Of a DNA stretch of 25,816 nt, positions 6,350 to 25,816 are shown in pieces (position 1 is the stretch's first letter; the number at the start of each line of letters is the position of its first letter). The notes beneath the pieces are model-generated. The model was not told the origin of the DNA, did no database searches, and worked only from the letters and a program-made list of their open reading frames with translations. The stretch is from Candidatus Hodarchaeota archaeon (GTDB lineage Archaea > Asgardarchaeota > Heimdallarchaeia > Hodarchaeales > YT1-039). The stretch lies in assembly GCA_016840025.1 (NCBI GenBank), contig JAEOTF010000237.1, forward strand, positions 1 through 25,816. The letters run 5' to 3'. Position numbers and translations under genes: made by a program.

Positions 6350-7582
6350 TTGGATCAACAGGATAGAACACCATTGTCTCCAGATTTATGTATTGGTTTT
6401 AATTCACGACCTATAGTTGAAGCTTTAAAGAGAATAAATCGCTCTGTAGCAGCAATTGACTATTTTGGAGATGTTGACATTCGTGAAAGGGCGGATTATT
6501 TGTTTAGTATTTTAGATCAAAGAGAAGATGAATCTATTGGCCGTCCCATGCATCGAACAGCTGCAGACTATCTTGTTGATTTAGCAGAAGTGATGGCAGA
6601 AGAAGTCGAGATAGAAAATGTAATTATCGGTAGTGGACTAGATGATTATCCTGAGCATTGGAACCGCTTAGCCACATTAGGAGAATTCTGTGGTAATGAT
6701 CCTAACAAACTTATGATCTTAAGAGATCGACAACTTCTCTACAAAGAAGCCCAAGAACATAATATTCTAACGCCTAAAATGGAAGTCATCACATCTTCCC
6801 AGAAGACTGCGTTACTCTCCGAAAATTTGTCTTTCCCAATCGTGGTAAAAGGATCAACAGGAGGAGGTGGATCCAATACAAGTTTGTGCTACTCACTAGA
6901 AGAAATAGAAGCAGCAACATCCGATATGCTTGATCGATGCCCCTCATGTTACCTTCTAGAGTTTCTTAAGGGAATCCCCGCCAGTATCTCGCTCATTGGT
7001 AATGGTGATCAATGTACGACTGTAGCAATAAATAAACAGCTGATTGGTTGTGATTTTGCAGCAGCACCAAGCCCTTTCACCTATACAGGCAATACAACTC
7101 CTCTTAATATACCCACTAACCAATTAACAAGTATCAAGAAAAGATTTGAAATGCTAGGGGAGTCACTACATTTGAAAGGGAGCAACGGTTTTGATTTTAT
7201 CATAGGAGAAGACAAGGAACCTTATCTCTTAGAACTAAACCCTCGAATCCAAGGAACCCTCGAATGCATAGAAATAGCAACAGAGCAATCCCTAATCAAG
7301 ATGCATCTGGATGCTTTTGGGGGAAAACTACCATTAATGCCACGTTTCCCTTATTTCAGCGCTAAAATTGTTATTTTTTCACCTGTTCATGCTAAAGTGC
7401 CTGTTATCACAAGAGAAGAGGCGAGGGATCGACCTATTCCAGGTAGTATAATAGAGCCAGGAATGCCATATTGTAGCGTTTTTAGTACAGGAAATTCGGA
7501 AAAAGAAGCTTTAACAGAAGGAAAAAAAAAGAGTGCTCATGTGTTAGAAAAATTACAAAAACAAACCTGTGAAATAGGCTGA
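6350..7582 (+). CDS. ATP-grasp ligase, archaeal COG2232 type
   Basis: Up to 410 residues. It begins with a pre-ATP-grasp strand CIGFNSRPI and the VAAIDYFGD segment typical of the archaeal COG2232 family of predicted ATP-dependent carboxylate ligases. ATP-grasp features are IVVKGSTGGGGS (K167 and the Gly loop), LLEF with E204, and LELNPR with E295/N297 for Mg-ATP. Such enzymes form an acyl-phosphate and join it to an amine or thiol; the substrate is unknown. No ATG lies near the 5' end. TTG 6350 and TTG 6374 are the candidates, and a TATA-like ATATATAATT lies at about 6329-6338. The tnpB element ends just upstream, and a 14-bp repeat of its far side (6357-6370) lies in the first codons. The original start may therefore have been altered by the insertion. 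A_n tract near 7523 codes for Lys. Confidence 0.82.
   Translation: MDQQDRTPLSPDLCIGFNSRPIVEALKRINRSVAAIDYFGDVDIRERADYLFSILDQREDESIGRPMHRTAADYLVDLAEVMAEEVEIENVIIGSGLDDYPEHWNRLATLGEFCGNDPNKLMILRDRQLLYKEAQEHNILTPKMEVITSSQKTALLSENLSFPIVVKGSTGGGGSNTSLCYSLEEIEAATSDMLDRCPSCYLLEFLKGIPASISLIGNGDQCTTVAINKQLIGCDFAAAPSPFTYTGNTTPLNIPTNQLTSIKKRFEMLGESLHLKGSNGFDFIIGEDKEPYLLELNPRIQGTLECIEIATEQSLIKMHLDAFGGKLPLMPRFPYFSAKIVIFSPVHAKVPVITREEARDRPIPGSIIEPGMPYCSVFSTGNSEKEALTEGKKKSAHVLEKLQKQTCEIG
6357..6370 (+). repeat. 14-bp direct repeat, right copy flanking tnpB element
   Basis: Identical to 4505-4518. It lies inside the proposed first codons of the ATP-grasp gene if TTG 6350 is used, or just upstream of its coding region if TTG 6374 is used. 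Confidence 0.7.
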
Positions 7583-7630
7583 TCTCTAGAGTAGAAAGTA
7601 AAAGTAATAATTCTAACTGTTTATAGTTTC

Positions 7631-7660
7631 AAAAAAAAGATAGGGGCATTAAAAAAAAAA
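7631..7660 (-). terminator. Oligo-T tracts downstream of the PH-like membrane protein
   Basis: On the minus strand, runs of ten T (7651-7660) and eight T (7631-7638) follow the stop codon of the 7682-8380 gene by 21-51 nt. Archaeal RNA polymerase terminates at such oligo-T tracts without needing a hairpin. Confidence 0.6.
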
Positions 7661-7681
7661 TGGGGGATATGAGTGAAGTAT

Positions 7682-8380
7682 TTACGAGGGTTCAACAGGA
7701 ACAATACCAAGGAGCTCGGTGATTGCTTTTTCTTTCTTATTTACGTTTAGTACGTTTTCCATGACAATTGCTGTTTCTCGACCCTTAGGGAGAATAGTAA
7801 TGTTGCCTGCTCTAAAGAGAATAAACTCAAAGAGGTCGGGAATATCTTTATACATCGTCGCATCCGATGCAGGCCAACGTTTAGCGTCACTGAAGGGACC
7901 GAAGTGGTGGATGATTTCCCGGGAGCGGATTTCATAGTATTCGATGTATGAGGAGATTACAATTATAATGAAACATATCAGCATGATGGAGCTCATCCAG
8001 AAATAGAAGTTTTTATCCGCGTCGGGGGGAGCATCAATCTTCAGAAAGAATTTTAGCTCGGAGTCCTCACTGGGTTCTCGTGGTGCAGCATCAATAGCCT
8101 GTAAGTAGAGATATAGGATAATAAGAAGGAGAAGTCCTAATACGATGGCTAAAGTTTTTGCAGTACCGAAGTCAAAGGCAATTATGATAAAATTGAAAGC
8201 AAAGATTAACAGAAAAGCTGTTGCGGCAATTTGTGAAACTTCAGGATCCGAAGGTTCAAAGACAAAGAGTAATAGCCATATTATATAACCGGCTATCATA
8301 GTGGGAATGAAAAAGAATACTTTCGGATAATGACGAACAATTACACGTCGCTGCTCGGAAGGAGCTGGTTTTTCGCCCAT
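7682..8380 (-). CDS. Four-helix membrane protein with PH-like C-terminal domain
   Basis: A 232-residue protein with a short charged N-terminus (EQRRVIVRHYPK) and four likely membrane helices at about 21-41, 50-69, 74-95 and 126-145. A soluble domain of about 80 residues follows. That domain (IRSREIIHHFGPFSD, then DIPDLFEFILFRAGNITIL, then VMENVLNVNKKEKAITELLG) resembles bacterial PH-type domains: hydrophobic strands, a 'G-x-I' strand after an acidic helix, and a final helix. That likeness is by eye only. ATG 8380 is well supported by GAGGTG at 8389-8394, 8 nt upstream. Function is unknown; a membrane-anchored scaffold or lipid-facing domain is possible. Confidence 0.8.
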   Translation of the reverse strand: MGEKPAPSEQRRVIVRHYPKVFFFIPTMIAGYIIWLLLFVFEPSDPEVSQIAATAFLLIFAFNFIIIAFDFGTAKTLAIVLGLLLLIILYLYLQAIDAAPREPSEDSELKFFLKIDAPPDADKNFYFWMSSIMLICFIIIVISSYIEYYEIRSREIIHHFGPFSDAKRWPASDATMYKDIPDLFEFILFRAGNITILPKGRETAIVMENVLNVNKKEKAITELLGIVPVEPS

Positions 8381-8388
8381 GTGTTTTC

Positions 8389-8394
8389 CACCTC
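8389..8394 (-). promoter_or_regulatory. Strong Shine-Dalgarno site (GAGGTG)
   Basis: On the minus strand GAGGTG lies 8 nt before ATG 8380 and fixes that start. Confidence 0.7.
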
Positions 8395-8470
8395 AATAAA
8401 ATAGACTGTAGATTTAAGTTAAAACTAACAAGTATCGATACAATTGAAAGTTCTTTCTATTTAATCAATT

Positions 8471-9781
8471 TCATAGTTCTCTAATAGTTCTTTCTAATGT
8501 TTTACACACAGCGACCAATTCTTCGTCCTTCCATCTCGTACCAATTACTTGCACTCCTACGGGTAACTCATTTACAAACCCAATAGGCAGGGTGACAATT
8601 GGGTACCCGATTACACTGAAAGGTACACAATATTCAATAGTAGCCCGCCAGTATGGAACTTTTTCTCCATTTATTTCGATTGGCTTATGGTTAGGATTAT
8701 GATCGAAAGGCAATGTCCCCGTAACAGGAACAATCCAGATCGAATACCGATTTAATAATTGAGTCACCAGTTTTCTCCCTTTATCGCGGATTTTTAACGC
8801 ATTAAGAATTTGATTTGCCGAGGGAGACATATCCGTTTCATCTTTAAGAGTGGGATTTTCAAGAGGTTTTACATGCATTAATTGGTCATAGAAGATTTTA
8901 TGTGCATATTTTAATTGCTTTAGGGGAAGTTCAGGGTTGATTTCTTCACTTGTAATCCCATTAGATTCTAATAATGATTGTATTTCTTTCATTTTATTGA
9001 TAATTCGATTGTCAATAGGCGCATATGGAAATCTATAGGTAAAAGCGACTTTTAGCGCCTCTTTGCTGGGTAACTTAGCTGGTTGATAAGGAATTTTAGG
9101 ATACTCATAATTTACCGATGAGCCACACATTGCTCGCATCAATAGTTCAATTCCTTCTAGACTATTCGCAATTGGTCCTACTACAATTTCATTTCGAGGA
9201 ATTGGATTTCCAGGTTCAGGTGGGATATGACCATCAAGTGGGAGTCGTCCTTCTGTTGGTCTTAGAGAATAAATCCCACAAAAAGAGGCGGGAATTCGTA
9301 AAGAACCCGCAAGGTCACTTCCTATAGCGAGTGAAACCATACCCGATGCAACAGCGGCAGTACTACCCCCACTTGATCCACCTGGAGTTTTTGTTATATT
9401 CCATGGGTTATTAGTTGTTCCAAAAAGCGAATTGAAGGTTTGTATATCCATTGCCATATCAGGTGTATTAGATTTTCCAAGGATGACGCCACCGTTATCT
9501 TTAATTCTTTTTACAATCTCCGCGTCTTTTCTAGGAATATAATCTTTGTATTTTTCAGAACCTGCAGTGGTGAGGATCTTTTTTGTTTCAAAAGTGTCTT
9601 TAATTAAAATTGGTAGTCCTTGGAGCAGATATTTTGTTTTTTCATTATTATTTTCTCTATCAAACCTTTTTGCTTCTTCTATAGCTGTTTCATTTAGCAC
9701 AGTAATTGCATTGACTTTTGGATTGAGCTCTTGGATTTTTGATAAGCAAGTAAGTAGTAAATCTTCGGATGATTTCATCAT
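8471..9781 (-). CDS. Amidase signature family hydrolase
   Basis: 436 residues, within the usual range for the family. The Ser-cisSer-Lys triad is visible as K61 (LPILIKDTF), S136 in the Gly/Ser-rich PGGSSGGS motif and nucleophile S160 (SDLAGSLR). The 24-residue spacing between the two serines is the same as in malonamidase and FAAH. The C-terminal half carries the usual GYPIVTLPIGF and PVGVQVIG segments. The enzyme hydrolyses a carboxamide to acid and ammonia; the substrate cannot be told. It lacks gatB/gatC neighbours and the GatA context, so it is more likely catabolic than a tRNA amidotransferase subunit. Two consecutive ATG codons (9781, 9778) can serve as start. It lies 90 nt upstream of the PH-like membrane protein on the same strand. 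Confidence 0.92.
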   Translation of the reverse strand: MMKSSEDLLLTCLSKIQELNPKVNAITVLNETAIEEAKRFDRENNNEKTKYLLQGLPILIKDTFETKKILTTAGSEKYKDYIPRKDAEIVKRIKDNGGVILGKSNTPDMAMDIQTFNSLFGTTNNPWNITKTPGGSSGGSTAAVASGMVSLAIGSDLAGSLRIPASFCGIYSLRPTEGRLPLDGHIPPEPGNPIPRNEIVVGPIANSLEGIELLMRAMCGSSVNYEYPKIPYQPAKLPSKEALKVAFTYRFPYAPIDNRIINKMKEIQSLLESNGITSEEINPELPLKQLKYAHKIFYDQLMHVKPLENPTLKDETDMSPSANQILNALKIRDKGRKLVTQLLNRYSIWIVPVTGTLPFDHNPNHKPIEINGEKVPYWRATIEYCVPFSVIGYPIVTLPIGFVNELPVGVQVIGTRWKDEELVAVCKTLERTIREL

Positions 9782-9870
9782 AGACTGATTTTATGAGTAA
9801 AACTTCATTTGTATTTCTGTAGCTTTAATTATGTAGGAGAAATTTTCAGCAATTTCATCATTCTAAAAAG

Positions 9871-10830
9871 TTAAGGAATGTTCCGCAGTTCACGAATTAG
9901 AGAAAGGACAAGTGGGATATTACGTTTGCAAACATAATTGATTTTACTGGGGGGTGGATTGAAATAGTCCCAAATATTGCCATAGTCTCCAACATAGACT
10001 TCAACACAAAAGCTAAGAGCGTCATATGTGGCATAGACATGATCTTCATAGGTACCGCTAGTAGGATAGAGATTAACAGATTGATAGGCATCGTACATTT
10101 TCACCTTCATCTTCTTAGCATATCTCTCTGTTGATGATATAATGCGCTTTATGATGCGTAAATCTTCTTCGGGGACACTCTCGTACCGATCTCCCCAAGG
10201 ATATAATATTGCCTCTATTCCCGAATGAAAGGTGATAGTGGTTTTTATCTGGAACTCTTTAAATAATGCATCAACTGCTTGTGTTTCAGACTCAGACAAA
10301 GGACTGGGACCACAGTAGTCTTGAGCGGACGGGCTGTGTGAACAACCAGGTCCACCCCAACCAAATTCATAATTGCGATTTAAATCGACATTTCTACCAT
10401 TTTTACGAGTGGCTTGATCTCTTCCGTCGGGATTAAGGATAATGAGAGTATGAATAGCATAATCCTCAATGATAGGGGCAAATAGTTTATGATTGCGGTT
10501 TTGAAGTATCGTTTCTAGAATGAATAGGGTGGTTTCAACACTAATGGCTTCTCTCCCATGATGACAGCCGATTAACAATATAGCCGGGGTGTTATCAAAA
10601 AATTTCTTCCTCTTTCCAATACTAATTAGCCAAATATCGCGGTTCTCTTTTGCAGAATTTCCTATAGATCGTAAAGTCGTGACGTCTTCATTTTTTTCAT
10701 GGAGTTCTTTTAATCGACGGCTTATCTCATTCGATTTTCGATAGTCAGTATAAGAAGGCAACTCAAACTCAAGTTTAGGAGATCCTGTATCCCATTTTAG
10801 GAAGTTACAGATTTTTTGAATGAAATTCAT
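9871..10830 (-). CDS. M14-family zinc carboxypeptidase
   Basis: 319 residues with all key positions of M14 metallocarboxypeptidases: zinc ligands H91 and E94 in CHHGREA, H202 in FHSG, the substrate-binding N151-R152 pair in VDLNRNY, and catalytic E277 in FCVEVY. It should cleave C-terminal residues from peptides or gamma-D-Glu-type bonds. There is no signal peptide or pro-domain, so it probably acts in the cytoplasm. The N-terminal ~50 residues carry YTDYRKSNEISRRLKELHEKN, the helix that usually opens the M14 domain. The unknown 198-residue protein is encoded 15 nt upstream and is almost certainly co-transcribed. Confidence 0.92.
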   Translation of the reverse strand: MNFIQKICNFLKWDTGSPKLEFELPSYTDYRKSNEISRRLKELHEKNEDVTTLRSIGNSAKENRDIWLISIGKRKKFFDNTPAILLIGCHHGREAISVETTLFILETILQNRNHKLFAPIIEDYAIHTLIILNPDGRDQATRKNGRNVDLNRNYEFGWGGPGCSHSPSAQDYCGPSPLSESETQAVDALFKEFQIKTTITFHSGIEAILYPWGDRYESVPEEDLRIIKRIISSTERYAKKMKVKMYDAYQSVNLYPTSGTYEDHVYATYDALSFCVEVYVGDYGNIWDYFNPPPSKINYVCKRNIPLVLSLIRELRNIP

Positions 10831-10845
10831 GTTTAACGCCTTATT

Positions 10846-11442
10846 TTATTCCAATACCGGCTTTCTCAAAGTGGAAACAATTCGTTTTGTGATGTTGCCT
10901 TCCTTATCATAATAGATGAATATTGCTGAACCCTTTTTACCTGTGGGTGGATGTAAAAAATGAGCAAAAATCCACTGATGGGTATCTGTATCCCACATTG
11001 TTCTTTGAACAGTATCTCGCTCTTCTACTGCCTTTTTTGGTAACATTAAGCGTTGGATTTCGTTAGCATGAGATCGAGCCTCATTTTCTAAATCTTTGTG
11101 GGCAACTGTTTCCACTTCTAAACAACTCTCTACCACAAAGACATCCGCTTCGTACTCCTTACCCGAGGGAAGTTTGAGCATTTTACGATCAAAATATCCT
11201 TCAACTTTAACAACCTTCTGTGATTCTACTTCAAGTGGTTCTGAAAGGGTTATTCTAACCCATTCTTTGTTTTTAACTATATATACAGAAGTATTCGGCC
11301 TGGAATCATAATAAATCCCTTCAATCGTTATTTTATCGTCTTTTATATCCCTAATTATCTTTTTAAGGAAGGATTTCACTTTGCCAGGTTGGATCATGAA
11401 GTTTTCATCTTCAATTATTTCGGTTGCCGTCATTATCATCAT
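10846..11442 (-). CDS. Uncharacterised protein paired with M14 carboxypeptidase
   Basis: 198 residues, family not recognised. The middle is strand-rich (DDKITIEGIYYD, TSVYIVKNKEWVRITL, KVVKVEGYFDRKML), then YEADVFVVESCLEVE, which could be a small beta-barrel of OB type. A charged helix (about 115-138) follows. The C-terminal part alternates strands around a short loop (HQWIFAHFLHPPTGKKGSAIFIYYDKEG). No signal peptide, Cys cluster or membrane helix is seen. Three in-frame ATG codons lie within the first four codons at 11442. No Shine-Dalgarno site is evident; a TATA-like TTATTTATT about 27 nt upstream would allow a leaderless transcript. The 15-nt gap to the carboxypeptidase suggests a shared operon and perhaps a shared substrate. 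Confidence 0.75.
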   Translation of the reverse strand: MMIMTATEIIEDENFMIQPGKVKSFLKKIIRDIKDDKITIEGIYYDSRPNTSVYIVKNKEWVRITLSEPLEVESQKVVKVEGYFDRKMLKLPSGKEYEADVFVVESCLEVETVAHKDLENEARSHANEIQRLMLPKKAVEERDTVQRTMWDTDTHQWIFAHFLHPPTGKKGSAIFIYYDKEGNITKRIVSTLRKPVLE

Positions 11443-14224: not shown

Positions 14225-15259
14225 ATGATCTGGATGCGGGAATATATTTCAGGAGATATTCCAATTCTCACTGAACCAATTCCTGAGATTTCTATTTTCA
14301 TGGATCACCACCCCGTCATCGATTTGGGTAATTATTGGAAAGAAATTCAGCGAATCATCGAATTTCTTGGTTATTCACCACAAAAAATGCGAAAAACTTT
14401 CAATAGTCGCAAAAAGAAAGACGCAGCTGATATTGAAGAATTTTTTATTCAAATCAATCGCCAATTTGGAACAGGAGGAGGAATCAATTTTTGTAAAAAA
14501 CATGAATTTGCAAGTCGTAACCTCATCTATTGGTGTTACTTGAATGCAAAGCAAACATGGAAACTTAAGCATGGAATATGCGGCGAACAAGCGGTCTTAT
14601 TGTTAGGAGTTCTACGAAATTTAGGTGCCCAAGCATGCATCTGTAGACCCTTTAGATCTCATTTTGGGGTATTAGTGAAAGTTCCTTCCCAGGCAGGCTA
14701 CTTTATGCTTGACCCGAGCGTGGGCAGAACTGTTAAATGGAAAGAAACACTTATCCGTAAAAAGTTAAGTTACCCCAGGGAAAAACATTTGGGAAGCAGT
14801 GAATATACGTTTGAAGGACCGATTACTCTTTGGGAATTTATGTATGGACATAAACACGCAGTTGGCTTTCGACAAATAGAGTATACTCAGATGCTTACAA
14901 ACCTTGGAATTTCAGTTCATGATCCACAAATTGGCTTAGAAATTGAAAAATATTGGACTAACAAAATACTAGATCCTCAATGTTCAAAAACTGAAGCAAA
15001 GAAAAGAATCAAGAACTATAGAAAAAAGAGAAAACAATTTCTTTTAGGAATTAGCAGTAAAAAAGACACTAAGGAAATCCTAGATATTTTGAAAAAAAAA
15101 TTTCCTCGCATTCAAATGAGGTTACCCTTTCTACCCCGACAGAAACTTGCGGAAACACTCTCAAAAGCAATATCGACGGATGGTCATGAAGAATATACTC
15201 CTGATAAGCTAGAAGATGTTATTCTCAAATCATTGCAGGATCTGTTTGGTGATGAATAG
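14225..15259 (+). CDS. Transglutaminase-fold protein (cysteine hydrolase/acyltransferase)
   Basis: 344 residues from ATG 14225; TTG 14210 and TTG 14159 are alternatives, and the position of the TATA box argues against 14159. The transglutaminase-like core has C119 in HGICGEQA, H146 in RSHFGVLV and D163 in YFMLDPS, in the Cys-His-Asp order of the family. Members hydrolyse peptides or move acyl groups between amines. The ~110 residues before the core are mainly helical and basic (FNSRKKKDAADIEEFF). The C-terminal ~150 residues are Lys-rich and helical with no known domain. There is no signal peptide, so it is cytoplasmic. Its stop codon touches the ATG of the zinc-finger gene, which makes it the first of three tightly coupled genes. 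Confidence 0.8.
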   Translation: MIWMREYISGDIPILTEPIPEISIFMDHHPVIDLGNYWKEIQRIIEFLGYSPQKMRKTFNSRKKKDAADIEEFFIQINRQFGTGGGINFCKKHEFASRNLIYWCYLNAKQTWKLKHGICGEQAVLLLGVLRNLGAQACICRPFRSHFGVLVKVPSQAGYFMLDPSVGRTVKWKETLIRKKLSYPREKHLGSSEYTFEGPITLWEFMYGHKHAVGFRQIEYTQMLTNLGISVHDPQIGLEIEKYWTNKILDPQCSKTEAKKRIKNYRKKRKQFLLGISSKKDTKEILDILKKKFPRIQMRLPFLPRQKLAETLSKAISTDGHEEYTPDKLEDVILKSLQDLFGDE

Positions 15260-15841
15260 ATGAGTTTAGGCTGTTTCATATGTGGTAAACATATTACAGA
15301 GAAGGAAGAGTCGAAAGTATGTAACTCATGTGGAATTAAATTTTGCCTAAATTGTTCCTACATCTTAGATAAGGACGTATGTTGGAACTGTGGAGAGAAT
15401 CAACATCCTGATATACCATTTATAGAGTTTAGAGAATTAAATGATAAAGAAGACGCGAATAAACTTAGAAAGTCGGCACTTGATGGCTATGCTAAAATTA
15501 TGATGGATTTATCACCTGCTTATCTTAATGCTGCCATCGACATGTCTTATGAAAAGCTAAAAGAACTAGGCTATAATGTTGAACGGAATATTATGCTAAA
15601 AACTAAGCATGGACGAATGCTAGTAGATATTTACGCACGAGGCAAGAAAGGACCGCTTGCCATCCTCTTTGCACAGAATGCTGGTGAAGGACGCGCTAAT
15701 TTAATGTTATTTCAACAATTAAAAGAACAATTCAAGGTTAAATACTTATATGTGATGAAAGAAGATCTCCCAACTAACCTTTTAGAAAACGCCTTCCTTC
15801 AGAGAATCAGGGTAATCCATTCTCCCGAACGAATCAGATAG
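15260..15841 (+). CDS. Eight-cysteine treble-clef zinc finger fused to restriction-endonuclease-like domain
   Basis: 193 residues. The N-terminus has four CxxC pairs: C5/C8, C21/C24, C29/C32 and C41/C44. This order (C-x2-C-x12-C-x2-C-x4-C-x2-C-x8-C-x2-C), with CGIKFCLNCS, matches FYVE/RING-like cross-braced fingers binding two zincs. The basic HHCR motif that binds PI3P in true FYVE domains is missing. After a linker, residues about 88-193 read LGYNVERN, then GRMLVDIYARGKKGPLAILFAQ, a PD-(D/E)XK-like strand pattern. D123 is present, but the expected E-x-K is F-A-Q, so nuclease activity is doubtful. The start ATG directly follows the previous stop (TAG-ATG), and its own TAG directly precedes the next ATG. 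GGTGAT at the end of the previous gene may serve as ribosome site. Adaptor or substrate recruitment is the likeliest role (inference). Confidence 0.82.
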   Translation: MSLGCFICGKHITEKEESKVCNSCGIKFCLNCSYILDKDVCWNCGENQHPDIPFIEFRELNDKEDANKLRKSALDGYAKIMMDLSPAYLNAAIDMSYEKLKELGYNVERNIMLKTKHGRMLVDIYARGKKGPLAILFAQNAGEGRANLMLFQQLKEQFKVKYLYVMKEDLPTNLLENAFLQRIRVIHSPERIR

Positions 15842-17173
15842 ATGATTAATCGCGAGCTAGTGAGCCTTATGTTTGGTATAGAATATGAATTATACCCATT
15901 CAAAGCGGACAGTGTTCTATTTGATCCAGATAATGAAAAAGATCAACGAAGAATTACGGAAATATGCTTTTACATGCGTCGAATGCAGAATTACGCGTAC
16001 GTTGAAGGATGTCACTGGCAGAAATGGTGTGCAGAAGAAACCGAACGATTCTCCAACCCGATTTGCCCTCAAATTGGACTAGATCAATTACGAATGAACG
16101 ATGAAGCTACCTTCCGTTTAGAAGTCCATACGGATCATACCCGTTGTCCTGACATTCATACAGCCATCCAAGATTTATCTAACCTTATTGAAGCATTAAA
16201 AGAGCATCAGGAAGTATATGATGTTCCTGTATGGGGAACAGTGCTCCGTGACCACAAAGGAAAGAAGAAAGTCACAATTGCGGCAACTCCACATGTTAAT
16301 ATGACGCTTTCCTATTCCTTCTTACCGAATAATGATATGAAAAAGCTATGGTTTCTTAATTGGGCCAGATTGATCCAATGGATCTGGCCTTGCATGCTTG
16401 CTGATGCAGGATCACCTGCACCTGACTTTGATAAAAATGGGAAGCCAATTCAAAACTCTAATGGAGAGTTAGAGTTTGTAGGTGATGCTAGACAGATAGG
16501 ATCGGGAAGTATTCGAGCAGGCTCTACTCTCTATTATACCCGACGTTCGAAGGAAACTGGAAGATGGGAAGTTGAGTTTCAAGAAGGATTTCTGTCAGAG
16601 GATCGCGAAATCGACTGGATTAGGTGGTTAAGAGACGAAGGAATCCCAGCTAAGCCCACATGGGACACTTCGGCCAGAAGAGGCGATTTACGACACCGAG
16701 AAGATGCTAAAGTGGGTTACTGTTTAGAGGCGCGGGTACTTCCAATGTTGCCCCCTGAAATGATGAAACATTATATAGCAGTCTATGTTCTTCTCGCTGA
16801 ACGGGCTTTTGAGGCTGCCAATAATTGGAAAGTTATTTCCCCTGCTCAATACACTCCATCGGGAGATATTATAGAATTTTGGCATCGCGCAATGTATAAA
16901 AGTGTTCGATATGGGTGGAGAGGACACATACCTAAAGAATATGGGGAAAAAATAGCAAAAGCACTTAATTTAGCAAAAACGGAAGTACCAAATAGCTCAT
17001 GGGAAGATGCAAATCTTTCTTCACTCTATGCAGTTATTGTACAACGTCTATACCAGAAGTATGGAAACATTCCTGATTCAGCATATGAACGGCATTGTGG
17101 AAATTTCAGACCGTTTGCCCAACAAGTCAATAAATTACGGATGAAGTATTTTACAAAAATCCTACTTCAATAA
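15842..17173 (+). CDS. Glutamine-synthetase-fold carboxylate-amine ligase (amidoligase/GCS2/PafA superfamily)
   Basis: 443 residues. First strand FGIEYELYPF places E14 and E16 as metal ligands. RLEVHTD carries E94, HVNMTLSY carries H151, and GYCLEARVLP carries E296 and R298 late in the protein. This order of acidic strand, second Glu, HVN strand and E-x-R strand is that of the glutamine-synthetase fold shared by gamma-glutamylcysteine synthetases, amidoligases and the Pup ligase PafA. Such enzymes phosphorylate a carboxylate with ATP and join it to an amine. It does not look like a standard glutamine synthetase (no N-terminal beta-grasp or NRPGGG-type motif seen). It is the last gene of the coupled operon. 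The assignment rests on motifs by eye; structure comparison would decide. Confidence 0.65.
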   Translation: MINRELVSLMFGIEYELYPFKADSVLFDPDNEKDQRRITEICFYMRRMQNYAYVEGCHWQKWCAEETERFSNPICPQIGLDQLRMNDEATFRLEVHTDHTRCPDIHTAIQDLSNLIEALKEHQEVYDVPVWGTVLRDHKGKKKVTIAATPHVNMTLSYSFLPNNDMKKLWFLNWARLIQWIWPCMLADAGSPAPDFDKNGKPIQNSNGELEFVGDARQIGSGSIRAGSTLYYTRRSKETGRWEVEFQEGFLSEDREIDWIRWLRDEGIPAKPTWDTSARRGDLRHREDAKVGYCLEARVLPMLPPEMMKHYIAVYVLLAERAFEAANNWKVISPAQYTPSGDIIEFWHRAMYKSVRYGWRGHIPKEYGEKIAKALNLAKTEVPNSSWEDANLSSLYAVIVQRLYQKYGNIPDSAYERHCGNFRPFAQQVNKLRMKYFTKILLQ

Positions 17174-17201: not shown

Positions 17202-17597
17202 TCATCCATAAAATTCGAGTACTGAGTCCGCAATTTTTAAGATACTGTCTAAATATTGTTTTATCTGTACACTTGAGAGGGCTCTTGCTTCTAATTTTTG
17301 ATGAAGTTTTAAAAAGGTCATAAGGCCTTCTTCCATTTTTTGGAAGGTCTCAGAGAGGCTATTTAGTTGAGATAGTTTTTCATTCAGGCTGGTTATTCGA
17401 CTATTCGCTTGATAAATCAGGCTATAATCCCTTTCGATGAGTTTAAGGTAAATTAAAGAGTGAAATAGGGCAAATTCGGTTGAATGAAGTAAAAAATGTC
17501 CAATAAAGATATCCCAATCTTCTTCCGATTGACAGTAGCCCATTGCCTCTTTTAGAAGCTTGGCATATTTAATAATCCAAGAGTCGGCCTCTGTCAT
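17202..17597 (-). CDS. Small all-helical protein of unknown function
   Basis: 131 residues predicted almost wholly helical, with a Leu/Ser/Gln-rich coiled-coil-like middle (about 58-105, e.g. ITSLNEKLSQLNSLSETF). ATG 17597 is backed by GAGGGAT at 17606-17612, 8 nt upstream. No motif or membrane helix is recognised. It is convergent with the transglutaminase-ligase operon, 28 nt from its end. An oligo-T tract on the minus strand (17171-17182) may terminate it. Confidence 0.72.
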   Translation of the reverse strand: MTEADSWIIKYAKLLKEAMGYCQSEEDWDIFIGHFLLHSTEFALFHSLIYLKLIERDYSLIYQANSRITSLNEKLSQLNSLSETFQKMEEGLMTFLKLHQKLEARALSSVQIKQYLDSILKIADSVLEFYG

Positions 17598-17916: not shown

Positions 17917-20900
17917 TTATGATTTCTTCCTAACAATTCGAAGCATACCAGCGCACCACACTAAAATTGCGACCACAAGACCACCTAAGGCGATAGGATA
18001 CGCTATAAAAGGCACTTCTTCTTCAGCCTCTTCAGTTGGTGGAGATAAAACTGTAAACGGAAGCTCAAATAATTTACTGTCGGTAGTTTTTATTAGAACG
18101 CTAAGAGTATGGTTACCTGGAGCAAAACGCCGAGCATCAACAGAAAGGTAGATGAAATAAGTCCCTGCTTCGTCCGTAATCATGACATAACCTAGAGAGG
18201 CATTATTATTGATAAACCCGTATAGATCCAAATCTTTCATTAATTCACCTGTTTCATTAAGAATGACAGTGAAATTAGCCCTGAAGACTTCACCTTGTGT
18301 TACTATGGCTGTATAGTGTATATCTTGATAATTTACGTGTAATGACCCTATAATCCTTATAATGACGTTAAACAGTTCATAAGAGGAAAGAGTAGTATTT
18401 GCCTGTCTTGCGTCTTCCCATATAAGAGAGAAACTATAGTTACCTGTTGGAGTATTAGGATCAACAAAACCGTAATAAGTGTAGGTATAATTGACGGGTG
18501 ACCAAAGAGTAAAGATATTGGCGTTTGTTCCATTCACTAGGCAAGTTATGTTCAAATGAATCTCAGCTGAGGGAATATTAAGCGGTAGAGAGGCATTAAT
18601 AATACCCCATGTACTATTGAGTATGTGACTATCATTATTCTCAATAATAAGCGTTGTATTGCTATCCGAGAAGTGTAAATCGTCGAGTGTTTCATTATAA
18701 TGGCTAGGAATTAATGTAAAGCTTTTAATAACCTTTTCGCCGAGAAGTAATTCATTGTCTTCGGGATAGTGACTTGGGTCGGTTATGGGATCGGTATCGG
18801 GAGAAAGGAGTTTATAAAAGATTGTTATGTTCTCGAAGACGATAGAAGAGTTGAAAAGTGTTGTGCCATATCCCCATTGAAGGTCAATGGTGCCATTAGC
18901 CTCTCCATATATTCCTTTATCAGGGATTTGAAGGTGAAATGCTATATCTGTATTATTAGGGGGGACAAGAGAGTTATTATAGTATACCCAATGAGTTTGA
19001 TTATCCGTCGCATCATCATCATAGAGAGTATGATTGGAAAGTTCATACATATCGGGTTCAGAGGCAGCATCGGCATCGTATCCTGTTACTGACCACGTAA
19101 GATTTTCTTTAGTGAAAATCTGCCAGTCATAAGCACCTGATGCTTGAATATCTACAAACTGGGTATCGACGGGTATGCTTTCATTAGATCCATAGAAGAA
19201 AGAGGTTATGAATATGATTTCATCCCCGGGCGACAAAATCGCGTCACTTGTATCTTTCAAGTAGTTCGGCGAATAATAGGTGGTTGTGTTAGTATGTGTT
19301 ACGTTTTCCGTGGTGTTCTGTAGTCGAACAGTCGTTGTATATTTGATGCCTTTTTTTATCCATAATTCCACATCAGAGGGCTTATAGACAATATCTTCAT
19401 CTACTGTGAATGCAACTTCATATGTTTTAGTCTCAGATTCCGTATTCAATACCAAAATTAATTTATATGTTCCTAATGACATTGGTACTTCAGGTAATGT
19501 TCCGTTTATTGAAATGTAGGTAATGCTACCAGTATTATTCTGTGTATTATTGAGAACATCTACTTGCCACTTGAATGAGGTTATATCTGAGAATAAAGTA
19601 GGCGTTCCAGAAGCTGTTCGACTCGTTCGATCCCAAAGATAGCTTACCGTGCCATTTCTTCTTAAATAAAAGACCGGAATGGTCTTATTAACAGGATCAT
19701 AGAAATAGTAACTTGGTCCATAGCCTGTGTTATCAGCAGCAGATATGAATTGGCCTTGGGTATTATGGGGTAGACCAACAATTTCTTCCCACGCCAGTGG
19801 GGTTTGAATCGTTTTCAAAGTAGGATCAGAATAAAGAGTATATTCTATGGAACCTATACCTCCAAAGGTAGGATCAAGCACTAAGTCAATACCATCCCCA
19901 GTCACATTCACTAGAAATAATGATCCGTTATTTACTGCCATAAGAATTTGGTATGTATCTGCTGTAAAATTTGCTTCAAGAGCATATGCTAACCCTCCAA
20001 GAGTAGAAGAAGTATCCATTAATACATGTGCTTCCCCCCATCCCTCAGTTCTATCAAAATCATACCAAAACAGTGTATTCGGACTGGTACCGCCTGAAGT
20101 AGAAACCAAAAGCTCAGTAATGGTATCATTATCCATGTCAAATACAAGGAAATCAACTGGGCTTCCGTAAGCAGCAGTTAAACCAAATACCTTCTGACCA
20201 AATAAAAAGAAATCAGTTCTATCATCAAGAGCTGTATCTTCGGTTAGAACCGCAACAGACTGCGAATCGGATGCAAATGCAACTACGAGATTCTGATGTT
20301 CGTCTTCTGTTATATTTGCTATAGCTAGTGAAACAATTTTAGCAATAGGGGGTTCAATCTCAGTTCCACCCTCAATCTGGCGCATTATTAACAGACTTTC
20401 ATTGAAGGTACTGGTGGTAGCATTCCAGCGAAATACATGAACGCCAGAACGGTCTCTATTTTCGGCACCAGATCCTGGGTTAGCACCTACAAAGATTTCT
20501 GATACATTTACATCGGTTCCAGATCGTCTAATATTACCTATTGCAATAGAATAAGCATCATGAATCATTCGCTCGGATAGTGCTAGGTCTGTTGTTTCAG
20601 TGCTAGTCCAATTGAGAGCAAAGCTATGAGTGGTCTTATCCCAGGTATAAACGTGGACTAATCCGATACTGTCACCTACTACAAGGTCGGTCATGCTATC
20701 ATTGTGCACATCACCGACAGCTAATCCATAACGATGATAGGCTAAGGAAGACTCTCCTTGCCAGTAGTCTTGTTGCCATTCGGTAATCAATTCACGATCT
20801 GGAATTGGAATTGTAGTATTAATGGAATAGGTCGAACCGTTGTGTGAAATGATGTAAATTTCACCATCATCCCCGCTTGCGACTAAATCTAAATTACTAT

Positions 20901-21462
20901 CATTATGAACATCGCCAATTGTTAATCCAAAGGCGTTACGACCGAGGTCAAAAGAGGCTTCTTTATTTATTTCATCATTGGCGATATTAAGAATTCTCAC
21001 CAAACCATCGTAGCTGCCGACAAAAAACTCCTCTAAACCATCGTTATCAAGATCACCTCTGCGTATTTCTTGTTGATAGCCTTTATTTATCGAATTGAAG
21101 ACAGTGTCATCTGAAGGAGACTCGATGTACCATGAGAAGGTTCCGTTAAGCGTGGAGTTGAATGCGGTGATGTTAATGCCAATGTTTTGTCCAGGATAAA
21201 ATGTTGTGGCATTGAGCGTGATATTTAAGTTCCCGCCTTCAAATATTTGGGTAGTTGGCTCGTTATTGTCGTCTTCTTCGTTTAAAGAAGAGTAGATAGT
21301 TCTTCCATTTTCACTTTCAGCTATTGCTACTTCAGTTTCAGTAGCTAATGAGCTGTTTACCTGTCCACCAACATATATTGAGGGAAGAATCCCTATAACA
21401 AGAATGAAGAGGACAACTTTGGCGTAGTCAAAGGATATTCTGTATTTGTTCAACTCAAGCAC
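17917..21462 (-). CDS. Large secreted membrane-anchored FG-GAP/VCBS surface protein
   Basis: 1181 residues. A hydrophobic N-terminal segment (14-31) acts as signal peptide or anchor. Residues about 130-470 hold at least six FG-GAP/VCBS-type repeats with acidic calcium-binding loops: DLDNDGLEE (137-145), DVHNDSNLD (184-192), DVHNDSMTD (251-259), and later NIRRSGTDV, NITEDEHQN and DMDNDTITE. These should form a beta-propeller. The rest (about 500-1140) is rich in beta-sandwich-like segments and N-x-S/T sites, consistent with a heavily N-glycosylated surface protein. A membrane helix near 1152-1171 and a basic RIVRKKS tail anchor it. GTG 21462 or TTG 21453 (GGTG 6 nt upstream) can start it. Roles in adhesion or the cell surface layer are inferred from this layout. 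Confidence 0.88.
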   Translation of the reverse strand: MLELNKYRISFDYAKVVLFILVIGILPSIYVGGQVNSSLATETEVAIAESENGRTIYSSLNEEDDNNEPTTQIFEGGNLNITLNATTFYPGQNIGINITAFNSTLNGTFSWYIESPSDDTVFNSINKGYQQEIRRGDLDNDGLEEFFVGSYDGLVRILNIANDEINKEASFDLGRNAFGLTIGDVHNDSNLDLVASGDDGEIYIISHNGSTYSINTTIPIPDRELITEWQQDYWQGESSLAYHRYGLAVGDVHNDSMTDLVVGDSIGLVHVYTWDKTTHSFALNWTSTETTDLALSERMIHDAYSIAIGNIRRSGTDVNVSEIFVGANPGSGAENRDRSGVHVFRWNATTSTFNESLLIMRQIEGGTEIEPPIAKIVSLAIANITEDEHQNLVVAFASDSQSVAVLTEDTALDDRTDFFLFGQKVFGLTAAYGSPVDFLVFDMDNDTITELLVSTSGGTSPNTLFWYDFDRTEGWGEAHVLMDTSSTLGGLAYALEANFTADTYQILMAVNNGSLFLVNVTGDGIDLVLDPTFGGIGSIEYTLYSDPTLKTIQTPLAWEEIVGLPHNTQGQFISAADNTGYGPSYYFYDPVNKTIPVFYLRRNGTVSYLWDRTSRTASGTPTLFSDITSFKWQVDVLNNTQNNTGSITYISINGTLPEVPMSLGTYKLILVLNTESETKTYEVAFTVDEDIVYKPSDVELWIKKGIKYTTTVRLQNTTENVTHTNTTTYYSPNYLKDTSDAILSPGDEIIFITSFFYGSNESIPVDTQFVDIQASGAYDWQIFTKENLTWSVTGYDADAASEPDMYELSNHTLYDDDATDNQTHWVYYNNSLVPPNNTDIAFHLQIPDKGIYGEANGTIDLQWGYGTTLFNSSIVFENITIFYKLLSPDTDPITDPSHYPEDNELLLGEKVIKSFTLIPSHYNETLDDLHFSDSNTTLIIENNDSHILNSTWGIINASLPLNIPSAEIHLNITCLVNGTNANIFTLWSPVNYTYTYYGFVDPNTPTGNYSFSLIWEDARQANTTLSSYELFNVIIRIIGSLHVNYQDIHYTAIVTQGEVFRANFTVILNETGELMKDLDLYGFINNNASLGYVMITDEAGTYFIYLSVDARRFAPGNHTLSVLIKTTDSKLFELPFTVLSPPTEEAEEEVPFIAYPIALGGLVVAILVWCAGMLRIVRKKS

Positions 21463-21636: not shown

Positions 21637-22638
21637 TCATGAATTATGCATGAGTTTTCTTGCTGCTTCTTGAATCTTCTCAGCATTAGGGAGTACAGCT
21701 TCTTCTAAAGGACGACTAACTGGAAGAGGAACATCATGAACAGCTAGACGCTGAAAAGACTTCAATATTGTAGGATCATGCTCAACAACAGTAGCAGCAA
21801 TTTCACCCGTTAATCCATAACTTAAGTAATCCTCATCTACCACCAAAACACGGCCTGTTTTTTGGGCTGTACGGATTATAGCATCCCGGTCAAGTGGGAC
21901 TAAACTTCGAAGATCTAAAATTTCTACATCTATATCCTCCTTGGCCAATTCTTTTACTGCTTCTTCTGCTCTATGAACCATTAGCGATAGTGTGATAATG
22001 GATAAATCAGACCCTTTTCTTCGAATACACGCCTTACCGAAAGGGACTGTATAGGATTCTTCAGGAACTGGTCCAGAAACACCATAAGTCATCAAAAAGA
22101 CGTTGTACAACATCTTGTGCTCTAATATGATTACAGGATCGTTACTCCTAATCGCTTCAATAAGCATTCCTTTAGCGTCATAAGGGGTTGAAGGAGCCAC
22201 TACTTTTAATCCCGGGATATGTGCAAATGTTCCCCAGAGGACTTGAGAATGGGTTGCTGAATTTTGATAGCCGCCCCCTATACCAGCTCGAAGAACTAAG
22301 GGAACTGAGACAGTTCCTCCGCTCATATAATGAATCTTCGAAAGATGGTTTAGTATCATATCAAAGCATACACCCACAAAATCCACATAAAGTAGTTCCA
22401 CAACTGGTTGTAATCCATGAATGGCGGCCCCAATTGCAGCACCTAAAAACGCAGTCTCAGAAATAGGGGTATTACGCACTCGTATGCCGAATTTTTCCTT
22501 CAAACCTTCCGTAGCAGTAAATAAACCGCCAAACTCAACATCTTCACCTAGAATAATAACCCGTTCATCTCGTTCCATTTCTTGGAACAGTGCTTCTCGA
22601 ATAGCCTCAACATAATCTAATTTTCGTTCGTTTGTCAA
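21637..22638 (-). CDS. Thiamine-dependent 2-oxoacid/acetoin dehydrogenase E1, beta subunit
   Basis: 333 residues of transketolase fold, the partner of the E1 alpha subunit encoded just upstream. GEDVEFGG (31-38) and PISE with the thiamine-activating E61 are diagnostic, as are the AAIHGLQPVVELLYVDF segment and the C-terminal LRSLVPLD and VLVVDEDYLSYGL stretches of the transketolase C-domain. With E1 alpha it decarboxylates a 2-oxoacid (or splits acetoin) and passes the acyl group to a lipoyl E2. The start is TTG 22638, directly after the E1 alpha TAA. GGAGG (22647-22651), 8 nt upstream inside the last E1 alpha codons, supports this and shows translational coupling. No E2 or E3 gene lies in the window. 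Confidence 0.94.
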   Translation of the reverse strand: MTNERKLDYVEAIREALFQEMERDERVIILGEDVEFGGLFTATEGLKEKFGIRVRNTPISETAFLGAAIGAAIHGLQPVVELLYVDFVGVCFDMILNHLSKIHYMSGGTVSVPLVLRAGIGGGYQNSATHSQVLWGTFAHIPGLKVVAPSTPYDAKGMLIEAIRSNDPVIILEHKMLYNVFLMTYGVSGPVPEESYTVPFGKACIRRKGSDLSIITLSLMVHRAEEAVKELAKEDIDVEILDLRSLVPLDRDAIIRTAQKTGRVLVVDEDYLSYGLTGEIAATVVEHDPTILKSFQRLAVHDVPLPVSRPLEEAVLPNAEKIQEAARKLMHNS

Positions 22639-23610
22639 TTAAGATCCCTCCTTTTCATAAAATACCTGTTGAAATGCCAATTCTGGATCGGGGTAAGGAC
22701 TTTCCAAAGCAAAATCCACAGCATCTTTGATTTGAGCTTTAACCTCTTGCTTAATGTCTTTCAGTTTCGCAAAAGTGAGGATATTTTCATCTAATAGTCG
22801 TTTTTCAAATTGGGAGATAGGATCTTTTTTTTCCCAGGTTTCTTGTTCTTTTTCGGATTTATAAAGCTCGGTATCTCCTTCCATGTGAGATGCTAAGCGA
22901 TATGTCTTTGCTTCAAGAAGAACTGGTCCTTTTCCTTCCCTAATATGGGCAATAGCATTAGCTGTTATCTGATAGACATTTAAAACATCATTTCCATCGC
23001 AAATATAACTTTTCATAGCATACGCACAAGCTCGATCTGCAATATTATCTATAGGACTCATGTCTGTGAAGGGAGTAGATATGGCCCAGTGATTATTCTC
23101 ACAAACAAATAGAACTGGTAACTTCCAAATACTGGCTAAATTTAGACTTTCATGAAACATACCTTGATTTACTGCCCCATCCCCAAAAAAAGCCACGGAG
23201 ATCCTATCCGAACCTTCCAATTGAGCTTTCAGTGCACTCCCAAGAGCTAATGGCATACTTGCACCTACAATTCCACTACACCCAAACTTAATCGAGTGAT
23301 CGAATAAATGCATATGGCCGCCTTTCCCTTTGCATAAACCAGCTTGTTTTCCAAAGATCTCTGCGGCTAGTGGGCGTAATTCAACACCTTTTGCGATGAT
23401 ATGGCCATGTGATCGGTGTGTTCCCTCTACTGCATCATTAGTTCGAAGATGTAAACAAACTCCCGCAGCTATGGCCTCTTGACCCCGACAAAGATGTAAT
23501 TCGCCGAAATTGATTTGAAAATCCCAATATTGTTCAGCAATTTGGTCTTCAAATTCACGAATGGTTTGCATAATCCTGTATAATTGAATTAGAATCTCTG
23601 GGTTCGTCAA
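22639..23610 (-). CDS. Thiamine-dependent 2-oxoacid/acetoin dehydrogenase E1, alpha subunit
   Basis: 323 residues. The thiamine diphosphate motif is GDGAVNQG (143-150) ending at ENN (171-173). THRSHGHIIAKG (64-75) and GLCKGKGGHMH (91-101) are the substrate-channel segments and read most like acetoin dehydrogenase (AcoA) or bacterial PdhA subunits. Start TTG 23610 is preceded 9 nt upstream by AAGGTGG (23620-23626), which overlaps the stop of the SCP2 gene. ATG codon 14 would remove the conserved first helix. It forms the E1 heterotetramer with the beta subunit. Pyruvate, branched-chain acids or acetoin are all possible substrates. Confidence 0.94.
   Translation of the reverse strand: MTNPEILIQLYRIMQTIREFEDQIAEQYWDFQINFGELHLCRGQEAIAAGVCLHLRTNDAVEGTHRSHGHIIAKGVELRPLAAEIFGKQAGLCKGKGGHMHLFDHSIKFGCSGIVGASMPLALGSALKAQLEGSDRISVAFFGDGAVNQGMFHESLNLASIWKLPVLFVCENNHWAISTPFTDMSPIDNIADRACAYAMKSYICDGNDVLNVYQITANAIAHIREGKGPVLLEAKTYRLASHMEGDTELYKSEKEQETWEKKDPISQFEKRLLDENILTFAKLKDIKQEVKAQIKDAVDFALESPYPDPELAFQQVFYEKEGS
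22647..22651 (-). promoter_or_regulatory. Shine-Dalgarno site deciding the TTG start of E1 beta
   Basis: GGAGG on the minus strand, 8 nt before TTG 22638 and inside the last codons of E1 alpha. Confidence 0.75.
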
Positions 23611-24818: not shown

Positions 24819-25816
24819 ATGATTCTAACCTACAAGACGCAGATCTATCCCACCGAGGGGCAAAGGCAGGTTTTGTGGGATCTTGCGGAACGTTGTAGGT
24901 TAGTGTATAATTTTGCCTTACAAGAACGCCAAGAACGCTGGAAGAGCCATCTCAAGAACCCTAGTAAGCCGTACAAGCCTGTTCAATACATTGAGCAACA
25001 AAATAACCTCCCTGCGCTAAAGAAACGCTATCCCGAATACACGTGGGTCTATTCCAAAGTCCTCCAGCTCACGTTGAAGACCTTAGACGCGGATTATAAA
25101 TCGTTTTTCACCTTACGCAAGAATGGCGATAGGAATGCCCGTCCCCCTAGGTTTAAAGGAGAAAGGTATTTCACCACCCTGAAATATAACCAGAGTGGGT
25201 TTAAAGTGCACCACAGGGTCTTAACCCTCTCCCATAGGCATCCCTCGAAAACCCCCCTCGCCTTTAAGCTGCCCTACCTTCCCACCGGGGAGATTAAGCA
25301 GCTCGAACTCTACCAAGACCATGTGTCTCAAAAGTGGTTTGTCGCGTTCAATTGTCGCATCGAGGTCAAAACCTACTCCGATAACGGGTTATACCAAGCA
25401 GTTGACGCGGGGGTCGAGAATATTGTCTCTGCCATTAATTCGCAGGGCAAATTTCTCCAAATTAAGAACAAGCGTCCCGAGAAGTATTGGCGCCCGAAAA
25501 TCGCGGAAGTCCAGGCGAAACGGGATCGATGTAAAAAATGCAGTCGGAAATGGCACCGGTATAACCGCAAACTGGAGCGAATGATCCGGAAACTTACTCA
25601 CCAACTCCGTGATTTTCAGCATTGGGTGAGTAAGAAGATAGTGACCAATACCAAGGCAAATACCCTCATTTTCGGAAAACCTGCCGTCAAACAGATGGCT
25701 CAGACCAAGAGTGGGGGGAAAAAGCGCAAACGGAGGAAAAGCACTAAAACCCTCCACTATACCCTGCAAAATACAGGGACGATCGGTCGCTTCATCGAAT
25801 TGGTAGCCTACAAAGC
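24819..25816 (+). CDS. tnpB: TnpB-family RNA-guided nuclease, 3' end missing (runs off right edge)
   Basis: 332 residues are visible with no stop before the edge. The N-terminus TYKTQIYPTEGQRQVLWDL...RLVYNFALQERQ is the classic helical start of IS1341-type OrfB/TnpB. RuvC-I is QAVDAGVENIV with D196. A basic helical region (about 226-276) leads to the RuvC-II position TLIFGKPAVKQM, where G286 stands in place of the canonical Glu. The zinc finger, the possible substitute Glu and the RuvC-III Asp lie outside the window. Its GC content is clearly higher than its neighbours (many GCC, CCC and CGC codons), a sign of recent transfer. No tnpA lies upstream in the window. It belongs to a different TnpB lineage from the gene at 4570-6201. 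Confidence 0.92.
   Translation, partial: MILTYKTQIYPTEGQRQVLWDLAERCRLVYNFALQERQERWKSHLKNPSKPYKPVQYIEQQNNLPALKKRYPEYTWVYSKVLQLTLKTLDADYKSFFTLRKNGDRNARPPRFKGERYFTTLKYNQSGFKVHHRVLTLSHRHPSKTPLAFKLPYLPTGEIKQLELYQDHVSQKWFVAFNCRIEVKTYSDNGLYQAVDAGVENIVSAINSQGKFLQIKNKRPEKYWRPKIAEVQAKRDRCKKCSRKWHRYNRKLERMIRKLTHQLRDFQHWVSKKIVTNTKANTLIFGKPAVKQMAQTKSGGKKRKRRKSTKTLHYTLQNTGTIGRFIELVAYK

Follow-up and report, generated by a model that had tools for sequence, protein, structure and literature searches.

The window analysed here comprises 25,816 nucleotides of contig JAEOTF010000237.1 from a Candidatus Hodarchaeota archaeon. On its plus strand lies an operon of three consecutive genes, whose products are referred to below as protein 1 (a predicted transglutaminase-fold cysteine enzyme), protein 2 (a zinc-finger protein) and protein 3 (the ligase, probably of the glutamine synthetase, or GS, fold type). 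The genes, their junctions and the associated signals are as follows.

14225..15259, plus strand: open reading frame (ORF) of protein 1, 344 amino acids, predicted transglutaminase-fold cysteine enzyme; alternative start at 14234
15260..15841, plus strand: ORF of protein 2, 193 amino acids, zinc finger and orphan alpha/beta domain
15842..17173, plus strand: ORF of protein 3, 443 amino acids (434 from 15869), probable GS-fold-type carboxylate-amine ligase; hhalign score to GCS2 30.4
15257..15262, plus strand: TAG-ATG junction 1, read in the sequence
15839..15844, plus strand: TAG-ATG junction 2, read in the sequence; its ATG is possibly not where the ligase begins
15248..15253, plus strand: GGTGAT, a Shine-Dalgarno-like site 6 nucleotides before the finger ATG, with a putative role in initiation

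The three genes share one reading frame. The initial annotation of this DNA had described three touching plus-strand genes with TAG-ATG at both junctions, and this arrangement is present in the sequence. So are the residues that it named, namely C119, H146 and D163 of protein 1, the eight cysteines of protein 2, and E14/E16, E94, H151 and E296/R298 of protein 3; all of them are invariant in the relatives found (one for protein 1, two for protein 2 and one for protein 3). Base composition by codon position is 0.46/0.34/0.30 for protein 1, 0.46/0.30/0.32 for protein 2 and 0.52/0.39/0.33 for protein 3. Owing to this composition and to the conservation of the products in other sequences, we regard the ORFs as real genes. 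Two start sites may need revision. The true ligase start may be M10 (15869), 27 nucleotides downstream of 15842, because the only relative of the ligase, P0001, begins there; no Shine-Dalgarno-like site was seen before 15842 when the sequence was read by eye. Likewise, protein 1 may start at 14234, since its relative P0003 begins at that position. The operon is not alone in having genes that abut or follow in frame: elsewhere in the window, two ORFs for E1 alpha and beta subunits join in frame (TAA-TTG at 22639/22638), and 10846-11442 followed by 9871-10830 forms a second in-frame pair.

Protein 3 is probably a GS-fold-type carboxylate-amine ligase and a relative of GCS2, an assignment drawn from its motifs:

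15875..15889, plus strand: GhExE motif, G12-I13-E14-Y15-E16, aligned to the E-x-E that is invariant across 50 GCS2 sequences
16121..16123, plus strand: E94, acidic active-site position, aligned to Glu in 50/50 GCS2 sequences
16292..16300, plus strand: H151-V152-N153, [HD]x[NH] motif, aligned to HxH (41/50) or QxN (9/50) columns
16727..16735, plus strand: E296-A297-R298, Ex[RK] motif without the subsequent Asp, placed by eye

The available excerpt of PMC2588565 gives GhExE, [HD]x[NH], Ex[RK]x2D and strand-5 arginines as the motifs of the GS-fold carboxylate-amine/ammonia ligase superfamily, and calls GhExE distinctive for these ligases. Against a GCS2 profile built from 50 sequences of archaeal genomes, the score of 30.4 extends over residues 91-193 of the ligase (P 0.0028). 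It was reached by 0 of 300 column shuffles in one set (top 27.2) and by 1 of 300 in another (41.3), while the top score among 20 other proteins of the window was 19.5 and reversing the query gave 15.8. On this profile a true Amidoligase_2 protein obtains only 24.2, so that the distance of the ligase from GCS2 is no greater than that of a recognized family relative. DUF2126 (PF09899), which we take to be the Rv2566 type, itself scores 27.3. Among strongly conserved GCS2 columns (at least 40 of the 50 sequences), the ligase is identical at 13 of 23 aligned; among invariant columns it is identical at five of seven (E14, E16, E94, N173 and A187). E94 is the one acid aligned among the acidic active-site positions of the superfamily. 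The GhExE segment belongs to a second, collinear local alignment, which alone scores 16.5 (P 0.26) and is not significant, and R225, R234 and R235 lie in the region of the arginines of strand 5 or the preceding loop, with the alignment favouring none of them. The earlier assignment as a ligase with GS-fold motifs is supported by GhExE, E94 and HxN aligned to GCS2, with ExR recognized by eye. Library searches name no family: PADLOC gave nothing for the ligase, PHROG a chance-level row only (E 0.17, with E up to 10) and the PDB a best row at E 0.95, and Pfam gave no match for the relative P0001 at E up to 10, the GCS2 model (PF04107) remaining unmatched. No resemblance of the ligase to DUF2126 was detected, with no Pfam match, an hhalign score of 18.9 and shuffles as high in 52 of 200 (8 of 25 plasmid records used); no paper containing the word DUF2126 was found, judging by listings alone.

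For protein 1, the catalytic residues could be placed as follows.

14579..14713, plus strand: predicted catalytic triad codons C119 (14579-14581), H146 (14660-14662) and D163 (14711-14713), from the profile alignment

The Pfam model Transglut_core matches protein 1 at E=0.011 (16.4 bits versus a cut-off of 23) and P0003 at E 0.0041 (17.8 bits, also under the cut-off). Compared with a profile of 27 Transglut_core sequences, protein 1 scores 27.9 in hhalign, a value attained by none of the shuffles (0/200 and 0/300, together 0/500). C119, H146 and D163 stand in register with GYC, aHaW and fDP of the profile and are conserved in P0003, which agrees with the Cys-His-Asp transglutaminase core described at the outset. 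The best 19-residue hydropathy mean of protein 1 is 1.39; no membrane helix is therefore expected.

Protein 2 consists of two parts:

15272..15391, plus strand: zinc-finger part with four CxxC (Cys 5, 8, 21, 24, 29, 32, 41 and 44), treble-clef/cross-brace-like spacing
15482..15838, plus strand: C-terminal domain, residues 75-193, predicted alpha-beta-beta-beta-alpha-beta in a low-confidence model (mean predicted local distance difference test score, pLDDT, 47)

The finger makes up about one-quarter of the protein. Its eight cysteines, spaced C-x2-C-x12-C-x2-C-x4-C-x2-C-x8-C-x2-C, are invariant in 3/3 sequences, and we take this spacing to be reminiscent of FYVE fingers. No curated Pfam cut-off was reached by the finger; sub-cut-off similarity was seen to DZR (0.0038) and IBR (0.028), and to Prok-RING_1 in P0006 (0.013). 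The first description of protein 2, as an eight-Cys treble-clef protein, fits the finger cysteines but overlooked the domain of residues 75-193, which is the most conserved part of the protein and nearly invariant among its relatives. Pfam gave no match for these residues. The order of their predicted elements is the same as in PD-(D/E)XK folds (model pLDDT 47), and a comparison with Mrr_cat was not significant (shuffles as high 7/200 and 6/200); in that alignment D123 is in register, and the K position appears as Q139 by eye. The fold search is uninformative, and we leave residues 75-193 as an orphan alpha/beta domain.

Among 5.8 billion proteins, 4562 candidates yielded a single relative of the ligase, P0001 (86%). 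Protein 1 has one relative besides itself, P0003 (73%), on a contig of 1483 bp, and protein 2 has two, P0005 (74%) and P0006 (72%). P0001 and P0006 correspond to ACFFCQ_07200 and ACFFCQ_07205 of a Promethearchaeota metagenome-assembled genome, and for both the longest contig given is 9564 bp. Given the adjacent locus tags and the shared contig, the finger and ligase genes are therefore neighbours in a second genome. Promethearchaeota is the phylum name at NCBI, which we equate with the Asgard archaea. The closest relatives come from this phylum, in keeping with the archaeal origin suggested by the initial annotation. Of the three genes, whose staying together in other archaeal genomes it had proposed to check, the finger and ligase genes were seen adjacent in one second Asgard genome. 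The scans of genome contigs covered Archaeoglobi only and returned no relative of the ligase there; in Archaeoglobus-related archaeal genomes, fragments near E 0.001 were seen in 2/392 for protein 2 (finger part only), 2/354 for the ligase and 2/354 for protein 1. Viral contigs held no relative of any of the three proteins, phages and plasmids no ligase relative at E up to 1, and plasmids gave only four chance rows for protein 1 (E 4-6). Judged by titles and the beginnings of abstracts, no paper was found describing such a trio in Asgard archaea.

We read the operon, with slightly better than even confidence, as a module that makes and breaks an amide bond, and a peptide or small molecule is more likely to be the substrate than a protein tag. 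Protein 3 would use ATP to phosphorylate a carboxylate, probably a glutamate-type side chain, and couple this carboxylate to an amine through a gamma-glutamyl-like or isopeptide bond. Protein 1, presumably cytoplasmic, would hydrolyse or transfer the same kind of amide bond and could act as a trimming peptidase, an amidase or a reversal enzyme. Protein 2, with its zinc finger, would serve as an adaptor, and its conserved C-terminal domain may bind the partner enzymes or a substrate carrier. Beyond the observed gene order, the motifs and triad in register with their superfamilies, the lack of any 19-residue stretch hydrophobic enough for a membrane helix, and the neighbouring position of genes 2 and 3 in another Asgard genome, we infer the activities, the shared substrate, the directions of the reactions and the role of protein 2. 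As a separate observation, further amide-bond chemistry is encoded within 8 kb of the operon, where genes for an ATP-grasp_3 protein, an amidase and a zinc carboxypeptidase are found (window 6350-10830).

Several points weigh against the make/break reading. The linkage of gene 1 to genes 2 and 3 is seen in the window only. No Pfam or NCBIfam family was found for the ligase at E up to 1, and 1 of the 600 shuffles beat its score against GCS2, at 41.3. The ExR segment was left unaligned by hhalign, and P301 stands where the Asp of Ex[RK]x2D is expected; PafA likewise departs from this motif, having [QH]x4D (PMC2588565, excerpt). Structure prediction, proposed in the initial annotation, settled no fold, either for protein 2 (pLDDT 47) or for the ligase, whose model (pLDDT 34) is unusable and its Foldseek list meaningless; the GS fold is therefore not shown by structure. 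For protein 1, no library reaches its cut-off for transglutaminase, and the single sequence scores 25.0 against the transglutaminase profile, compared with 23.9 for a TnpB-like protein, the next of the 21 window proteins. The ligase or transglutaminase likeness might be partly spurious, in which case the fold of protein 3 would be a new one among enzymes and its motifs coincidental. The better-scoring shuffle and the want of a usable model speak for this view, as do the shallow alignments, those of proteins 1 and 3 having two sequences apiece. Nevertheless, the order and spacing of the motifs are right, including five of the seven invariant GCS2 positions, and we consider such a coincidence very improbable.

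The pairing of a transglutaminase-like protein with an amide ligase was said from the beginning to be already known, and this is the case. Large proteins with an N-terminal transglutaminase-like and a C-terminal carboxylate-amine ligase domain are described in PMC2588565, where, as far as the excerpt goes, they have no Pup-like neighbours and are read as peptide makers. One such fusion was found here, a protein of 1160 amino acids with Bact_transglu_N, Transglut_core and DUF2126, beside an ATP-grasp gene and another transglutaminase gene. The transglutaminase-DUF2126 fusions resemble the trio in having a transglutaminase fold upstream of a predicted GS-superfamily ligase, in the same order and with no Pup-like neighbour reported, but they are one polypeptide of 1100-1160 amino acids without a finger/orphan-domain protein, whereas here there are three proteins. 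On a Caballeronia plasmid (L129, 1-397 and 523-7533), genes for a transglutaminase-DUF2126 fusion, an ATP-grasp protein and a transglutaminase lie beside a putative zinc-binding metallopeptidase. In operons of the Anbu/ATP-grasp/alpha-E/transglutaminase type, too, a transglutaminase-like protein is encoded beside an amide ligase (PMC6376114, in part); ATP-grasp/alpha-E/transglutaminase operons were seen in loci L121 and L124, but there the ligase is ATP-grasp, not GS fold, and no finger protein is present. On the strength of the published transglutaminase-ligase fusions and ATP-grasp operons, the make/break logic is therefore known, and the trio is a new variant of it, divided among separate proteins and including one additional partner. 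Among single enzymes, GCS2/YbdK-type ligases (PF04107) share GhExE, the invariant Glu (E94), HxN, NxxR and PxxLA in register with protein 3, which differs in lacking a Pfam match and the Asp of Ex[RK]x2D and in being longer; nor is GCS2 reported here in one operon with transglutaminase and finger genes. PafA and Dop share the GS superfamily and GhExE and HxN-type motifs (PMC2588565, excerpt), but the trio window has no Pup-like ORF, and reversal would fall to a transglutaminase fold, not to a GS-fold Dop. The archaeal E1/E2/small-RING ubiquitin operons share the Asgard host and a small Cys-rich finger encoded in an operon (PMC5654768, in part), but no ubiquitin, E1 or E2 gene lies beside the trio operon.

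These comparisons bear on what the bond, if made, would serve. The initial annotation had suggested that the trio could be a protein-tagging or peptide-synthesis system. In the tagging version, the ligase would attach a small modifier or an amino acid to proteins, its removal would fall to the transglutaminase-fold enzyme, and the finger protein would choose the targets. In line with this, the GhExE and HxN motifs recur in PafA, which is a relative of GCS2 (PMC2588565, excerpt), Asgard archaea are reported to have ubiquitin operons containing small RING fingers (PMC5654768, in part), and the finger cysteines are invariant in all three sequences. However, the search for an adjacent Pup- or ubiquitin-like protein found none: 0 of 152 small ORFs (30-140 amino acids) in the window end in GG, GGE, GGQ, GE or GQ, although a modifier could be encoded elsewhere in the genome, and the tag might be just one amino acid. 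Nor do the published transglutaminase-ligase fusions have a Pup-like neighbour, and they are read as makers of peptides or secondary metabolites, so far as the excerpt of PMC2588565 goes. Protein tagging is thus possible but unsupported, and we judge it quite improbable. Slightly less probable again is an Asgard-specific third kind of GS-fold conjugation, in which proteins would receive an amino acid or a still undiscovered modifier from the ligase and lose it again through the transglutaminase-fold enzyme. The finger and orphan-domain protein would select targets in the manner of an E3, and the parts might be fused by partial TAG readthrough.

More plausible than tagging, yet still unlikely, is a role in thiol or cofactor biosynthesis, with protein 3 an unusual gamma-glutamyl-amino-acid ligase, protein 1 an amidase unrelated in substrate and protein 2 a regulator, the genes being merely co-expressed. 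The GCS2 match would suit it, haloarchaeal-type gamma-glutamyl ligases being among the archaeal GCS2 members of the profile; on the other hand, the ligase exceeds most of these GCS2 sequences by about 70-100 residues, the Pfam GCS2 model is unmatched, and the pairing with a transglutaminase fold better fits make/break chemistry. A further alternative concerns the junctions themselves: TAG might be decoded at least partly, for example as pyrrolysine, to give a fused enzyme of 982 residues or more like the bacterial fusions. The single frame with zero gap and TAG at both junctions would allow this, TAG stops run in frame into the next gene in 3/3 cases (2048, 15257-15259 and 15839-15841; 21 listed genes) versus 2/18 for other stops, and some Asgard archaea have pyrrolysine recoding (PMC9723677, in part). 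However, the 3/3 pattern was noticed post hoc, and no window gene is interrupted internally by TAG. ATG follows both TAGs, a Shine-Dalgarno-like site precedes the finger ATG, and the relatives are separate proteins with the same ends and starts. Pyrrolysine among Asgard archaea is, moreover, confined to Sifarchaeia according to the available part of PMC9723677. We regard readthrough as extremely improbable and keep it as a minor alternative.

The trio adds to Asgard archaea a highly divergent GS-superfamily ligase, unnamed by the libraries, and an orphan finger protein. Asgard archaea are the lineage nearest to eukaryotes, and in its logic (make a bond, break a bond, choose a target) the operon is similar to tagging systems. 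Were its product a protein adduct, the operon would represent another independent origin of protein conjugation; were it a peptide, this would be a new Asgard metabolite.

The neighbouring genes are of several kinds. Convergent with the operon on the minus strand, 17202-17597 encodes a coiled-coil-like protein of 131 amino acids with weak similarity to Snf7 (ESCRT-III) at E 0.013, below the cut-off. It is followed at 17917-21462, minus strand, by an FG-GAP-repeat surface-like protein of 1181 amino acids, with hydrophobic N- and C-terminal segments by eye. TnpB/Cas12f-like transposon-type proteins are encoded at 4570-6201 (minus strand), with a Cas12f1-like TNB domain, and at 24819-25814 (plus strand), the latter recognized by eye. 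The E1 alpha and beta ORFs at 21637-23610, minus strand, are of the pyruvate-dehydrogenase type, an unusual chemistry if the host is an anaerobic archaeon.

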